Shown here: positions 1,901-20,955 of the stretch, in pieces
Position numbering within the stretch: the stretch's first letter is position 1
How the letters are laid out: every line of letters starts with the position of its first letter
NCBI GenBank assembly: GCA_014381465.1
Contig: JACNLP010000027.1
Coordinates: 1-64,000 of the forward strand
DNA length: 64,000 bases
Reading direction: 5' to 3'
DNA from: Flavobacteriales bacterium
GTDB taxonomy: Bacteria; Bacteroidota; Bacteroidia; Flavobacteriales; BACL11
Notes under the pieces: generated by a model
What the model was told of the DNA's origin: nothing
The model's input: the letters and a program-made list of their open reading frames with translations, nothing else
The model's database searches: none
Translations under genes and position numbers: made by a program

Positions 1901-4900
1901 ATGAAAAACCTTCTTTTTTTACTCTTTATATTTTGCTTTTCTTTATCTAGCAAATCAGAAGAAAATATTAATTCTGTTTTAGCCAATGGTAATTGGTATA
2001 AAATTGCTGTGCAGCAAGATGGTGTTTATAAAATTAGCTATTCGAATTTATCTGATTTAGGCATAAATACTAGTAATTTATCTTGTGATAAAATCCGTAT
2101 TTTTGGTAATGGAGGCGGCATGTTGCCTAAATTAAACAATGATTTTAGGCATGATGGACTACAAGAAAATGCCATAAAAGTAGTTGACAACAACAATAAT
2201 GGTGTTTTTGAAAGTGGGGATTACATCTTATTTTTTGGACAATCGCCTGACAGATGGAACTATAATGAAACCGACAATCGATTTCATCATCAGAAGAACT
2301 TATTTAGCCGAAAAACCTACTATTTTATTACTACTGATATGGGGAATGGAGGCAAAAGAATACAAAGTAAAAGCACTCCTAATTTTGATGTGAGCGTAAG
2401 TGAATTTGATGATTTTGCTTTTCATGAGCAGGATTTGGAGAACTTTATAAAATCAGGTGCTCAATGGTATGGCGAAAAATTTGATTTAACAAATACCTAT
2501 AATTTTAGTTTTAGTTTTCCAAATATTGATGATTCAACTCCTGTATATATTAAAACATCAGTTGCGGCTCGTTCTTTTTCAGCTTCTTCATTTTTAGTAA
2601 AAACAAATTCAACTAATATTCAAAGTATTTCAGTAGCACAAGCTGATCCACATTATACTGCTGATTATGCTAAACTATCTTCTAGTTCCGCCACATTTAC
2701 AGGGCAACCTAATATGGAGATTTCTGTTTCTTATAATCAGCCACAAAATACTTCTGTTGGTTGGCTAAATTTTTTAGAACTAAATGCAAGAAGACAATTA
2801 AAAATGAGTGGCAATCAAATGCTTTTTAGAGATGTGCAGTCGGTAGCGGACAGTGTAAATGCAAAGTTTGTTATTTCAAATGCTACTTCAAATTTAATAG
2901 TTTGGGATGTAACAAATTCTGTTAATATAAAAGAAAGAGTTGCTTCATTTTCTTCCAGTAAAACTACTTTTATATCATCAACTGATTCCTTAAAAGAGTA
3001 TTTGGCTTTTAATGGAAATTCTTTTTATTCCACAGAGCTTATTGGTAAAATAAGTAATCAAAATCTACATGGTAGTTCTGATGATGTAGAATATGTAATT
3101 GTATCTCACCCTAATTTTTTATCAGCAGCAAATGATTTAGCCGCATACCATGAGCAACAAGATGGGATAAATACCATTGTAGTAACGCCTCAGCAAATTT
3201 ATAATGAGTTTTCATCAGGGGCACAAGATATTAGTGCAATTCGTGATTTTATGAGGATGTTTTACAAAAAACCAAACAGCAAAATTAAATATCTTTTATT
3301 ATTTGGAGATGGCTCTTACGATCCTCTTAATCGTATTTCTTCAAATACAAATTTTATCCCATCTTTTCAATCCAACAACTCGGTTTCCCCAACACAAAGC
3401 TATGTAACGGATGATTATTTCGGGCTTTTAGATGATTCGGAAGGTAATTTTGCTAACGATTTGGTAGATATTGGTATTGGAAGATTTCCAGTACAGACCC
3501 TTACGGAAGCTAATAATATGGTAGATAAGGTAAAAAGATATAATGGAAAAATGTCTTTTGGTGATTGGCGAAATAAAGTCACTTTTATTGCGGATGATGG
3601 GGATGCGGCTGATGGAAATACCCACATGTGGCAAGCCGATAGTTTGGCAAATATAATTGATGATAATTACAAAAACATCAACATTAAAAAAATATATTTA
3701 GATGCTTTTACACAAGAATCTACCCCTGGCGGACCAAGATCGCCTGATGCACAAAAAGCCATTACCGAAAGTGTAGAAAAAGGAAGTTTGCTTATCAATT
3801 ATTCTGGACATGGAGGAGAGTTGGGCTGGACAAAAGAAAGGATTTTGGAAGTAGGACAAATAAACAAATGGGAAAATGAAAATAATTTACCACTTTTTGT
3901 AACGGCAACTTGCGAGTTTTCCCGCTTTGATGATCCGGATAGAATTTCTGCTGGCGAATACACTTTGCTTAATAAAAATGGAGGTGCTATTGCACTGCTT
4001 TCCACCACACGCTTGGTTTATGCTAGCCCAAATTATTTTCTTAACAAACAATTTGTAAAAGTACTTTTTGAAAAAGAAAATGGAGAATCTCCAAGATTAG
4101 GCGATTTATTCCGGCAAACAAAAGTAAATAGCGGCACGGCACTTAACAATAGAAACTTTACGCTTTTGGGCGATCCTGCACTTTGCTTGGCTTATCCGGA
4201 TTTGAATGTAAGTACAACAGCAATTTCCGATACAATTTCTGCTTTGGGAGAAGTAACAATTTCAGGAAAAATTGAGGATGAGAATGGAACTTTAGCAAGC
4301 AATTTTAATGGTGTGGTTTTTCCAACAGTTTATGATAAACAGGAGATACTAAAAACTTTGGGGCAAGAAAGTAGCACTCAAATGCCTTATAGAAGTCAGA
4401 ATAACATACTATATAAAGGAAAAGCATCAGTAACAAATGGAACTTTCAGCTTTTCCTTTATAGTGCCAAAGGATATTGCATACAATTTTGGTAGCGGAAG
4501 AATATCCTATTATGCTGTTTCAGCCGATAGTTTGCAAGATGCAAGTGGCTATGATGAGAGTTTTACTATTGGCGGAACATCTAGCAATATTACAGCCGAT
4601 TTTGACGGACCAGAAATTGAACTTTTTATTAATAATGAGCAATTTGTTTCTGGAGGAATGACCAATGAAGACCCACTACTTTTTGCAATACTTAATGATT
4701 TTAGTGGTATTAACACGGTAGGAAATGGAATAGGGCACGATATTATTGCAGTTTTGGATAATGAGACTAACCAATCTATTTCTTTGAATGATTATTACAC
4801 TGCCGATATTGATAATTATAAAAGTGGAAGTGTAGCTTATCCTTTTTACGATTTGGAGAAAGGGCATCATACTTTGCATCTAAAAGTGTGGGATGTTTTT

Positions 4901-16443: not shown

Positions 16444-17153
16444 ATTAAGATTAATCTATCAGAAGAAGTAGCGTTAAAATCTTCCAATTTATAGTTGCCA
16501 AAGATATCAATAATTCTTAGCCCTGCATTACTTATAAATGTAGAAAAATCAGCCAAAGTGATTGTCTTTACTTTTTCTTGAAAATGTTGTTTTTCAGTTC
16601 CGTTAATAATTTCAATATCTTTAATAATATGTCCGTTCTCTACTTTCCTTGTAATCTTAAATAGTATATCATCAATACTCTTTTGTTCTTCTAGTACTAA
16701 ATTAGTAATTACCTTTTTCACATTCATAAAATCAATAATCAAAATTCCTTCTAATTTTAAATTACTAGCCATAGCATTTATGGCTTTTTGTTCATCTTTA
16801 GTATCCTCAAAATAACCAAAAGAGGTAAATAAATTAGTAACAACATCAAAGTTGTTTTTTTGATATACCTCACGCATATCGTGTACTGCAAAATTCAGAG
16901 TTGTATTTTTATCTTTTTTGGCAGCACTTATACTGTTAGGCGATAAATCAACCCCAACAACATCCATTCCTTTTTGATTAAAGTATTTTGCATGCCTTCC
17001 TTTTCCACAGGCAATATCAATGAGTTTACTCCCCTTTTTAATCTGTAAGTGAGCAACTAAATTGTCAATAAATGCTTGCGCTTCTTTTTCATCTCTATTT
17101 TTATAGAGGGTATGGTAGTAGAGGGAATCAAACCAGCTTGTAAACCAACTCAT
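16431..17153 (-). CDS. Class I SAM-dependent methyltransferase
   Basis: KLIDIACGKGRHAKYFNQKGMDVVGVDLSPNSI. Confidence 0.9.
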   Translation of the reverse strand: MSWFTSWFDSLYYHTLYKNRDEKEAQAFIDNLVAHLQIKKGSKLIDIACGKGRHAKYFNQKGMDVVGVDLSPNSISAAKKDKNTTLNFAVHDMREVYQKNNFDVVTNLFTSFGYFEDTKDEQKAINAMASNLKLEGILIIDFMNVKKVITNLVLEEQKSIDDILFKITRKVENGHIIKDIEIINGTEKQHFQEKVKTITLADFSTFISNAGLRIIDIFGNYKLEDFNATSSDRLILICKK

Positions 17154-17494
17154 AATTGTTCTCTTAATTTTTTAGGCATATTTTTTACCACCAATTTGTA
17201 AGAATCGGCAATCCACTCTTCAATTTGTTTGTCGCTTAAATCCCCAGTAAAACTTACGGAATTCCAATGTTTTTTGTTCATGTGCCAAGCAGGAGTTACT
17301 TCCGTGTGTTCTTCTCTTAAATTTATTGCTTTTTCAGGATCACATTTTAAGTTGCAAAACTCAAACGACATCATATTACAAAGTGCAAACATTTTACCGA
17401 CCACTTTAAATACTAAGGTGTCTTCATCAAAAGGCAATTCTTCTGTTGTTCCTTTGAATGATAAGCAATATTTTCTGAAATGGTCAAGGGTCAT
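17150..17494 (-). CDS. MmcQ/YjbR family protein
   Basis: RKYCLSFKGTTEELPFDEDTLVFKVVGKMFAL ... TPAWHMNKKHWNSV. Confidence 0.92.
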   Translation of the reverse strand: MTLDHFRKYCLSFKGTTEELPFDEDTLVFKVVGKMFALCNMMSFEFCNLKCDPEKAINLREEHTEVTPAWHMNKKHWNSVSFTGDLSDKQIEEWIADSYKLVVKNMPKKLREQL

Positions 17495-17586
17495 AAGGGC
17501 AAATATAAGGTCTTTATGTAATTAATTAGAAACTATTTTGATAGATTTTTATAAGAACCACACGATACAATCGTGCGGGAGCTAGG
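17445..17586. repeat. 142-nt direct repeat copy 1 (YjbR 5' end + promoter + REP palindrome)
   Basis: Aligns to 18415..18556 at constant offset 970 with 6 mismatches by eye. Confidence 0.95.
17557..17584 (-). repeat. REP-like palindrome (reverse orientation)
   Basis: ACCACACGATACAATCGTGCGGGAGCT; stem CACGAT-ACA-ATCGTG. Confidence 0.85.
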
Positions 17587-17714
17587 TCATAGTTGCAAAT
17601 GTAGTTAAATCAATTTTTTTGGTTATATTTAAAATATTCTTTGTACTTTGAAACGCAAAATTTTAACATCTTAACCAAGCAAATAGGGTAAAAATTTTAA
17701 ATAATAATGAGTTT

Positions 17715-18368
17715 ATGACGATAATCAAGAAAATGAGAAGCAACTGTCCAAGTTGTGGTAAAGTTGTAGAAAAATCAGGTTTTATGAGTTTTAACTATTC
17801 AAATACGAACTTATATTCTGATGGAAATAAGCAGGGAGGAGAGGATTTAGATTTTGCATCACCCATAGTTAGTTGTTTCAATTGTAAAGAGTATTTTTTT
17901 GAGGGAGATATATTTTCTGTATGGTTTAATTCTGTTGATGAATCAGATGAAGAAATAAATGAGTCTGAAGTAGGCTCTATGTATGCTGCAAGGGTTACAG
18001 ATATTTATAAGTTGCTAGAGAGTAAAAATTCAAAATTTATTAAAGATGCTTTTAATTTGTATAAATATATTATTCAATGCTTAAATCAAGTATTTTTGAG
18101 TAATGGCAAACTATATAACTACCAGAAAGAGATTTATTATAATTCTATTGATAGAACTATTGAGATTTTAGAAAGTAAAGAAGTAGTTGGTAAAAGTGAA
18201 AGCTCTAAAATTCTTTTTCTTGCAGAACTTTATAGATACCAAGAGGAGTATGAGAAAAGTTTAGAAATATTAAATACTATTAACAATAGAGAGTATAGAA
18301 ATTTTGTAACTCAACTTAAAGAAGCGTGTAAACAGAAAATTAAGAATTGTATAATTATTAACAAATAA
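17715..18368 (+). CDS. Uncharacterised zinc-ribbon N-terminal / helical (DUF2225-like) protein
   Basis: CPSCG...CFNC pairs; C-terminus SSKILFLAELYRYQEEYEKSLEIL. Confidence 0.6.
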   Translation: MTIIKKMRSNCPSCGKVVEKSGFMSFNYSNTNLYSDGNKQGGEDLDFASPIVSCFNCKEYFFEGDIFSVWFNSVDESDEEINESEVGSMYAARVTDIYKLLESKNSKFIKDAFNLYKYIIQCLNQVFLSNGKLYNYQKEIYYNSIDRTIEILESKEVVGKSESSKILFLAELYRYQEEYEKSLEILNTINNREYRNFVTQLKEACKQKIKNCIIINK

Positions 18369-18414
18369 AAATTAATTTAAACTTAAACCCTTTAAGGGCT
18401 AGTCTTATTCCTCA

Positions 18415-18556
18415 GTTGTTCCTTTAAGTGAAAGGCAATATTCTCTGAAATGGTCAAGGGTCATAAGGGCAAATATAAGTTCTTTATGTAATTAATTAGA
18501 AACTATTTTGATAGATTTTTATAAGAACCACACGATACAATCGTGCGGGAGCTAGG
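18415..18556. repeat. 142-nt direct repeat copy 2, with orphan YjbR 5' fragment (18415..18464)
   Basis: Offset 970 from 17445..17586; YjbR-like fragment not continued by a full gene. Confidence 0.95.
18527..18554 (-). repeat. REP-like palindrome (reverse orientation)
   Basis: Identical to 17557..17584. Confidence 0.85.
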
Positions 18557-18597
18557 ATTTAATTTTCAATAATAATTAAACAATAAAATATAAAAAG

Positions 18598-19346
18598 ATG
18601 AATTTTAGATTAACAAATAAACAGAAGCGAGTATTTATGATATTCATTAGTATTAATTTCATTATACTAATAATAAACCTATTTAGCCTTAGCCCTTCAT
18701 TTAAGTTTACAAAAATTGACAAAGAAGAAAAAGCTAAATATGATCAATTGATGATTGAAAAAAAACTTGCTTTAATAGAAAAAGATAAATTAACTAGTAA
18801 ATATAAAGAATTTAATTCAGATTTTTATTTAATCGAAAAGGAAGGAATATGTAAAACCTTAATGCCAAATTTCAAGTCAAAATCAGGTGGTTTTGATTTT
18901 ACAGAAGTTGATAAGTGGCAACATAAGCAGACTGGAAAATGTGAATATTGTTATGATATTTCAGACTCTCTAAAAAAAGTTTATGATAGATTTATTGAGT
19001 TAGAAGATTTAATTGAAAGACAAGAATGGAAAATTGAAAGAATAGATTTAGAAAAGATTTATAAATGTTATATTTTAACGGATATATATGTAGGAGATCA
19101 ATCTACTAATGATTGGAATTCTAGAGGAAGAAGGAAATTTAATAATATTGATTATTTCATAGAAATAAAACCTAATCAATTTTATCCTTTTGTTAATTTT
19201 GTAAGAGAAGGTAACCTTTTGGGTCGATAAATGAACGGTCTCAAAATGTAATAATAAGAGGTCTATTCCCTGATTATGATTATACAGAGTTTATTGTGTA
19301 CAGTTTATTGTTGCTAGGTATATTTTGGTTCAAGAATAATTGGTAA
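18598..19346 (+). pseudogene. Uncharacterised membrane protein gene, probable 1-nt frameshift near 19220
   Basis: ORF 18598..19230 stops at ...REGNLLGR*. Adding one T to the T4 run (ccttttggg) gives ...REGNLFGSINERSQNVIIRGLFPDYDYTEFIVYSLLLLGIFWFKNNW*, adding a C-terminal TM helix and ending at 19346. Confidence 0.5.
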
Positions 19347-19348
19347 CT

Positions 19349-19419
19349 ACCCAGCTCCCGCACGATTTTATCGTGTGGTTTTGTAGTTTATCTAATAATA
19401 ATAACATCATTTAATATTC
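19349..19419. repeat. 71-nt tandem repeat copy 1 (REP palindrome + copied RAYT 3' end)
   Basis: acccagctcccgcacgattttatcgtgtggttttgtagtttatcta...; 2 mismatches to 19420..19490. Confidence 0.95.
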
Positions 19420-19490
19420 ACCCAGCTCCCGCACGATTTTATCGTGTGGTTTTGTAGTTTATCTAACAATAATAACATTATTTAATATTC
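19420..19490. repeat. 71-nt tandem repeat copy 2, overlapping the RAYT stop and last codons
   Basis: Period 71; overlaps RAYT 3' end (19459..19490). Confidence 0.95.
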
Positions 19491-20013
19491 CTTTTCTACC
19501 GCTATAATCTCCTGCACTACTATATACATAGTCTTCTGCTCTAAAAACAAAACCCGCTTCAACTGGGTTATTATGAATGTAATTAATTTTTTCATCAATC
19601 ACTTTATTACTCCATAATTCAATTGGTTTATTATCATGCCTCCAAAATTGATATTTTTTTACATTGGAACTTTCTTTTCCAGCTTTTAAGAACTCAGATA
19701 ATAACCATTTTTTTCTGCTTTCTTGTGGGTTTTCTTCAATTGCTTTTACGATTGCTTTACTAGTAAACCTTTTCATATCACCAATAAGAAGCTCTGGTTT
19801 ATAAGAATTAACGCTTCTAAAAATAAGATGAATATGATTTGTCATAATACACCAAGCAAAGATCTCCATTCCTTTTTCTTTTTGACAATAATGTAAACTT
19901 TCAATAATGATATTTTTGTATTTATTTCTTGTAAAAACATCAAGCCAATTAACAACTGCAAAGCTTATAAAATAAGTTCCTTCTGGATTATGAAATTTGT
20001 AATTGCGGCTCAT
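19459..20013 (-). mobile_element. REP-associated tyrosine transposase (RAYT; Y1/HUH family)
   Basis: MSRNYKFHNPEGTYFISFAVVNWLDVFTRNKY..., HUH motif TNHIHLIFR, candidate catalytic Tyr in KINYIHNNPVEAGFV, flanked by REP-like palindromes. Confidence 0.93.
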
Positions 20014-20030
20014 TTTTAACTATTTAACTT

Positions 20031-20208
20031 TTTATTGTTCCCACACGATACAATCGTTCGGAAGCATTTTAATAAATGCTAATACTACCTTTTATTGTTC
20101 CCACACGATACAATCGTTCGGAAGCATCTTATAAATGCTTATACTACCTTTTATTGTTCCCACAGGATACAATCGTGCGGAAGCATCTTATAAATGCTAA
20201 TACTACCC
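20031..20208. repeat. Three tandem ~59-60 nt REP/BIME-like units
   Basis: Units at 20031, 20091, 20150: tttattgttcccacacgatacaatcgttcggaagcat(c/t)tt..aaatgctaatactacc; two hairpins per unit. Confidence 0.95.
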
Positions 20209-20955
20209 TCTCTGCCTTAAGGCTTCATATAAAATAACACCAGTAGCAACCGATACATTTAAGGAAGCAATTTTTCCAGCCATAGGGATTTTTGCTCTCG
20301 CATCACACATTTTTAAAAACTCAGGAGATACTCCATCTTCCTCCGACCCCATAATAATTGCAGTAGGTGGGATGTAGTCCGGCTTATACATATTGTCCTG
20401 TGTTTTTTCAGTACAGCCAACCAATTGTATTCCGCTATCTTTCATGAATTGCAAAGCCAATTTCAAATTCCAAGTACGGCAAACTGTAATTTTATGCAAG
20501 GCTCCAGCTGAGGTTTTTATCGCATCAGCATTAATGGCAGCCGCATTTTGTTCAGGAATTATAATTGCATCTACTCCGGCACATTCGGCAGTACGAGCAA
20601 TCGCCCCAAAGTTTCTTACATCTGTAATTCTATCTAAAACTAAAACAAGAGGATTTTTCCCTTGTTCGTATAAATTTGGGACTACATCCTCAATATTATG
20701 AAAGTCGATAGGGGAGATGAAAGCAAAAACTCCTTGGTGATTTTTTCTTGTCAAACGATTGATTTTCTCTAGAGGAACATGCTTGTAATTTATTCTTTTT
20801 TCACGGACTAATTTCCAGAGTTCAGCAAATAAATCATTGTGCAATCCTTTTTGGATAAATAGTTTGTCAATTGTTTTTCCGGCTTCTACTGCTTCAATTA
20901 TTGGCCTAATACCAAAAATAAAGTTGGCTTTGTCTTTGTCGTCTTTCCTGTTCAT
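20203..20955 (-). CDS. rlmB: 23S rRNA (guanosine-2'-O)-methyltransferase RlmB (SpoU/TrmH family)
   Basis: FIFGIRPIIEAVEAGK, VLDRITDVRNFGAIARTAECAGVDAIIIP, IMGSEEDGVSPEFL, NVSVATGVILYEALRQR. Confidence 0.95.
   Translation of the reverse strand: MNRKDDKDKANFIFGIRPIIEAVEAGKTIDKLFIQKGLHNDLFAELWKLVREKRINYKHVPLEKINRLTRKNHQGVFAFISPIDFHNIEDVVPNLYEQGKNPLVLVLDRITDVRNFGAIARTAECAGVDAIIIPEQNAAAINADAIKTSAGALHKITVCRTWNLKLALQFMKDSGIQLVGCTEKTQDNMYKPDYIPPTAIIMGSEEDGVSPEFLKMCDARAKIPMAGKIASLNVSVATGVILYEALRQRG

Follow-up and report, generated by a model that had tools for sequence, protein, structure and literature searches.

Introduction

The transposase TnpAREP cuts single-stranded repetitive extragenic palindromic (REP) sequences, and REPs are probably moved by this enzyme (PMC6006769, PMC8266576). 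REP clusters have also been found reiterated together with flanking DNA (Di Nocera et al. 2013, PMC3733652). It is an open question in the field by what means REPs spread and what role the REP-associated tyrosine transposases (RAYTs) play. Here we analyse a 64,000-nt stretch of a Flavobacteriales bacterium genome (assembly GCA_014381465.1, contig JACNLP010000027.1, positions 1 to 64,000; hereafter the window), in which both copies of a 142-nt repeat end at a REP and a RAYT gene lies 900 nt away. The locus is a RAYT/REP island of an already known kind, and it provides a new example with unusually clean copying anchored at the foot of the REP hairpin. Together with its relatives it gives a concrete, testable rule, in which the right end of the copied unit is fixed at the foot and the left end is variable, and the low copy number of the system lets individual events be read.

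The closest described enzymes are those of RAYT subclass 2.6 (equivalent to RAYT group 5), a Bacteroidota group with NH[LIV]H, YIH[QN]NP, WQ and SS motifs and a median HuH-Y spacing of 82 (PMC6006769), whose REPs are described as being without GT[AG]G (Quentin et al. 2018, PMC6006769). The RAYT of the window (19459..20013, minus strand; 184 aa; PF01797) is likewise from a member of the Bacteroidota; it has NHIH at position 59, YIHNNP at 145, a HuH-Y distance of 86 and SS at 165, and the hairpins on either side of it are atypical and have further copies in the genome. The W motif (FWRHDNKP) differs, in that the tryptophan is retained and the glutamine of the published WQ is replaced to give WR. 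We provisionally place the protein in subclass 2.6/group 5, on the basis of these motifs rather than of a tree with published members.

The island also shares features with three other systems. Like IS200/IS605 elements it has an HUH Y1 transposase, subterminal hairpins and a right end 3' of the hairpin, but the RAYT falls below the cutoff of that family (NF033573; 33.7 bits against 55) while exceeding that of the NCBIfam model REP_Tyr_transpos (NF047646; 89.6 bits against 80), and the left ends of its copied units vary. For the reiterated clusters of Di Nocera et al. (2013, PMC3733652), REP ends were reported to supply TAG stop codons, as one perhaps does for rlmB in the window; those clusters belong to GTAG families in other genomes, whereas in the window the REPs are atypical, present in very few copies and accompanied by gene fragments, and the copies have orphan genes between them. 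Internal deletion derivatives resembling miniature inverted-repeat transposable elements occur in the related genome G036, where short elements join the two ends, left and right, of the RAYT element of that genome, whereas the units in the window contain the ends of neighbouring genes and not both RAYT ends.

Results and Discussion

Base-by-base comparison of 17445..17586 with 18415..18556, at an offset of 970, identified six mismatches in 142 nt, all of them within the first 65 nt, with the remaining 77 nt free of differences. An initial annotation made from the sequence alone had reported these six early differences and had both copies ending at a REP with the motif GCTAGG; both observations hold, as identity collapses directly past GCTAGG in either copy. 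Copy 1 (17445..17586) consists of the 5' end of yjbR, the promoter region upstream of it and a REP. Similarity extends a further 8 nt leftward, with two more mismatches, to nucleotide 58 (codon 19) of yjbR. Copy 2 (18407..18556) contains an orphan yjbR fragment of 19 codons (18407..18464), longer than was first recognized, past which a stop codon is met, followed by the promoter region and a REP (18526..18556). The same pair was returned as the top family of a repeat finder in this region (150 nt, 95%, spacing 970); it is the longest repeat there and lies far beyond chance expectation.

The REP hairpin AACCACACGATACAATCGTGCGGGAGCTAGG starts at 17556 and 18526 (fold computed). At the first of these sites (17556..17586, plus strand) the REP search and the fold gave CACACGAT-ACA-ATCGTGCG followed by the foot GGAGCTAGG. 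Further REPs, all overlooked in the initial annotation, are located at 19349..19451, at 20037..20184 (these having diverged) and at two more genomic sites. The foot is a 3' GGAGCTGGG or GGAGCTAGG rather than the canonical 5' GT[AG]G, and the total of nine REPs, seven of them inside a single insert, is short of the high copy number of REP pairs that defines populations of REPINs (REP doublets forming hairpins) or BIMEs (bacterial interspersed mosaic elements). The RAYT gene lies between inverted REPs (19354 and 19425 on the minus strand, diverged ones at 20042..20184 on the plus strand), the REPs at both repeat copies are of its type, and it likely encodes their cognate transposase. Our leading interpretation, to which we give about an even chance, is that the 142-nt repeat is a REP-anchored duplicate within a RAYT/REP island inserted between rlmB and yjbR, and that it was made by a RAYT cutting at the REP foot.

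Three REP-anchored duplications are present in the insert, each including the end of a neighbouring gene (the yjbR start, the RAYT tail and the rlmB stop). Besides the 142-nt repeat there are two tandem 71-nt units (19349..19490, minus strand; 97% alike), each consisting of the last ~31 nt of the RAYT gene, a REP and the foot GGGAGCTGGGT, and three tandem 59-nt units (20030..20207, minus strand), which begin with the rlmB end GGTAG and hold the diverged inverted REP. The REP foot is the right end of both the 142-nt and the 71-nt repeat. Elsewhere in the genome, the solo REPs on contigs C77 and C85, the only ones outside the insert, have the REP and 46 nt of 5' flank in common, 42 of them identical (a flank score above all 1000 shuffles), and diverge directly past GCTGGGG. 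Thus a right end at the foot (AGCTAGG/AGCTGGG) is common to the REP-linked repeats of this genome, with the exception of the 59-nt array on the rlmB side.

Hairpins provoke replication slippage and template switching, and the 71-nt and 59-nt arrays are head-to-tail tandems. RAYT-independent events of this sort at REP hairpins, with the transposase a bystander, would carry flanking gene ends too. They give no reason to expect that the right end should fall on the same base, several nucleotides beyond the stem, over independent loci and dispersed copies, and we consider this explanation unlikely. The C77 REP is within about 15 nt of the 3' end of a gene, and at locus L048 about 8 nt separate a solo REP foot from the end of a gene with repeated TYDINNNL motifs (3281..4318).

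The copying pattern was also found around the RAYTs of other Flavobacteriales, whose REPs end in AGCGGGG or similar and where inverted REPs again flank the transposase gene (G029, G031 and others). Repeat ends were counted at 24 RAYT loci with a recognizable foot, the window included; a first automatic definition had put the foot inside some hairpins and was replaced before this count. Twenty direct repeats extend across the 3' REP, and 14 of them end within 3 nt of the foot, nine exactly on it. G031 carries a perfect 124-nt tandem copy of the RAYT tail plus REP. In each of the 55 pairs formed by the 11 REP copies of G036, the similarity stretches further on the upstream side of the REP than past the foot (median 22 nt versus 0), and all 11 copies diverge at the foot. 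A search of G562 yielded three REP copies, too few to be used. According to the published description (PMC6006769), REPtrons do not move as a unit, yet some of the related genomes have close whole-element copies ending at REP feet: at L112, L123 and L134, whole RAYT copies have the foot as their right end and its complement as their left end. Taken together, the repeat ends over these loci, the G036 pairs and the whole-element copies indicate that the foot acts as the right terminus of what is copied.

Several further arrangements were observed in these genomes. A 6-kb stretch at L052 and L115 (G036) holds the RAYT element together with several of its short end-to-end deletion derivatives, in direct orientation and separated by small open reading frames (ORFs); next to them is an ORF that resembles the end part of an Rhs-type protein (YAFVANMPTVAKDPDGKD). 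RAYT C-terminal fragments between REP-like hairpins at L038 and L042 (G031, contig C31) are dispersed deletion derivatives. In G653, four RAYT copies with identical scores (contig C1, 2213176, 2220488, 2227800 and 2260836), the first three exactly 7312 bp apart, suggest a large tandem array.

We propose the following model, in which RAYT cutting and strand transfer at the REP are deduced from sequence comparison. The RAYT belongs to the HUH single-strand nucleases and is related to IS200/IS605 transposases. It would recognize the REP hairpin and make one cut immediately 3' of the foot and another upstream, at no fixed place, so that a piece composed of variable flank, REP and foot could be copied and joined beside another foot-like sequence. 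For the window, this piece would be the yjbR start, its upstream region and the REP (about 150 nt), placed between the two ORFs of the insert, orfA and orfB. The possible target is GGGCTAG (18396..18402, plus strand), which follows the small palindrome CCCTTTAAGGG and lies 4 nt before the homology of copy 2 begins; this was noticed post hoc. The model would have orfA arrive earlier with the island, not through this duplication, and later gene conversion keep the 92 nt on the REP side nearly identical. If Bacteroidota group-5 RAYTs in general copied one-endedly, with the foot cut fixed and the left end free, REPs would keep carrying off upstream gene fragments and build islands of gene ends and orphan genes, a generalization that we regard as doubtful at present.

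The wider setting of the repeat was established by comparison with three relatives, G012, G001 and G003 (the last two congeneric). Their yjbR orthologues (90, 80 and 75% identity, respectively) directly follow rlmB, with a gap of 0-4 nt, whereas in the window the gap is 2.7 kb (17495..20202) and contains orfA, orfB, the RAYT gene and seven REP or REP-like hairpins. The boundaries are yjbR (MmcQ/YjbR family, intact; 17150..17494, minus strand; PF04237, E 1.4e-31), whose first 58 nt form the left part of the repeat, and rlmB on the right (SpoU family; 20203..20955, minus strand), assigned by family match and synteny. The island thus splits the rlmB-yjbR gene pair, puts a new region upstream of yjbR and leaves fragments of genes behind. 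The single-copy arrangement anticipated by the initial annotation therefore exists, but these relatives are without the whole of 17495..20202 and not merely 17587..18556. The RAYT was not found in the sampled rest of the family, whereas other families of the order have relatives up to 75% identical to it, which suggests that it arrived horizontally.

The initial annotation had further proposed that a REP-anchored duplication captured the ORF between the copies (orfA; 17715..18368, plus strand; 217 aa). Its REP anchoring is supported by the same foot end in the 71-nt repeat, the solo REPs and the other Flavobacteriales. The capture itself would mean that a 970-bp cassette of orfA, yjbR fragment and REP (17587..18556) entered on the 3' side of a REP foot already present at 17586. 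Two GCTAGG feet mark the exact limits of this segment, as would suit a rule of foot-to-foot transposition, and G036 likewise has a segment, with a small ORF in it, that is set between REP-type ends. Insertion of a ~150-nt unit of yjbR fragment and REP between orfA and orfB also fits the same sequence, and its size is nearer that of the units at other loci, most of which are about 50-165 nt or whole RAYT elements. The cassette would also require a donor where orfA and a truncated yjbR were already adjacent, and orfA was found in none of the 40 relatives searched and nowhere else in the genome. We judge cassette insertion to be rather unlikely.

Divergence between the two copies of the 142-nt repeat is unevenly distributed. 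The first 50 nt of yjbR hold five of the six differences and the 58-nt coding part holds seven, compared with one in the 92 non-coding sites (7/58 versus 1/92; Fisher p = 0.006). Such a contrast, with the coding part far more diverged than the rest, would suit recombination, homologous or facilitated by homology, in which the incoming DNA came from a relative with orfA in its yjbR-REP region, the copies being resident and incoming alleles; moreover, copy 2 is nearer than copy 1 to the yjbR of relatives over the 58 nt (G001, 4 versus 7 mismatches; G012, 5 versus 6). Against this, quartet site patterns gave the same grouping (G001 with G003, G000 with G012) in all genes tested (rlmB, yjbR, a methyltransferase and one more), whichever side of the insert they lie on and with no phylogenetic break, and the near-identical non-coding part is left unexplained. 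We therefore hold such recombination to be improbable. Import of yjbR from another lineage had been entertained separately, as identity figures first pointed to a G012-like yjbR, and was dropped as the favoured explanation once the quartet patterns showed no break.

Three points weigh against duplication by a foot-cutting RAYT. First, the left ends of the units have no fixed sequence, unlike those of IS200/IS605, so ordinary illegitimate recombination at the hairpin is possible. Second, the unit limits of the 59-nt rlmB-side array are ambiguous, and no canonical foot lies at its unit boundary. Third, the differences are concentrated in the coding part, whose divergence (12%) nears the 17% between congeneric yjbR genes. 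The two copies accordingly separated long ago or are mosaic; the REP side has probably been homogenized, with gene conversion as an assumption of the model.

Upstream of yjbR, TATATTTG (17500..17507, minus strand) lies 5 nt before the ATG and is identical in copy 2 (18470..18477). We take it to be a Bacteroidota-type -7 motif, going by the consensus as generally known, and thus a candidate promoter element only.

Both ORFs of the insert are AT-rich (GC content 27.1% for orfA and 24.0% for orfB, against 32.1% for the window). The orfA product has two CxxC pairs, a helical C-terminal part and a weak zinc-ribbon match, and belongs to a sporadic Bacteroidota family. Full-length relatives with 21-25% identity were found in two distant Bacteroidota genomes, the CPxCG and CxxC motifs being invariant in the three-member alignment; a match in Bacilli (L065) proved to be a chance 22-residue match in an unrelated 748-aa protein. 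orfA was absent from the 40 relatives searched. The initial annotation had suggested looking for the same ORF beside REPs elsewhere; orfA is single-copy in the genome and is not next to a REP at any other place.

The second ORF, orfB (18598..19230, plus strand; 210 aa), has an N-terminal hydrophobic segment and is frameshifted near 19220. The other frame runs for about 42 codons, encoding a hydrophobic C-terminus, to 19346 (...YSLLLLGIFWFKNNW-stop), 3 nt before a REP foot; the frameshift could reflect a real pseudogene or an assembly error. Searches for relatives of orfB gave weak, partial matches, none of them convincing. Neither ORF had a family match supporting a toxin, immunity or defence role or a PADLOC match as a defence gene, and orfA had no match as phage, plasmid or viral cargo.

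Upstream of orfA, a 32-nt stretch (17627..17658) recurs at 97% on G000 contig C54 (17282..17313), upstream of another gene. It was considered as a REP and is probably a shared promoter-type sequence instead. Beside it on C54 lies a different hairpin, ending in GGCTAGG.
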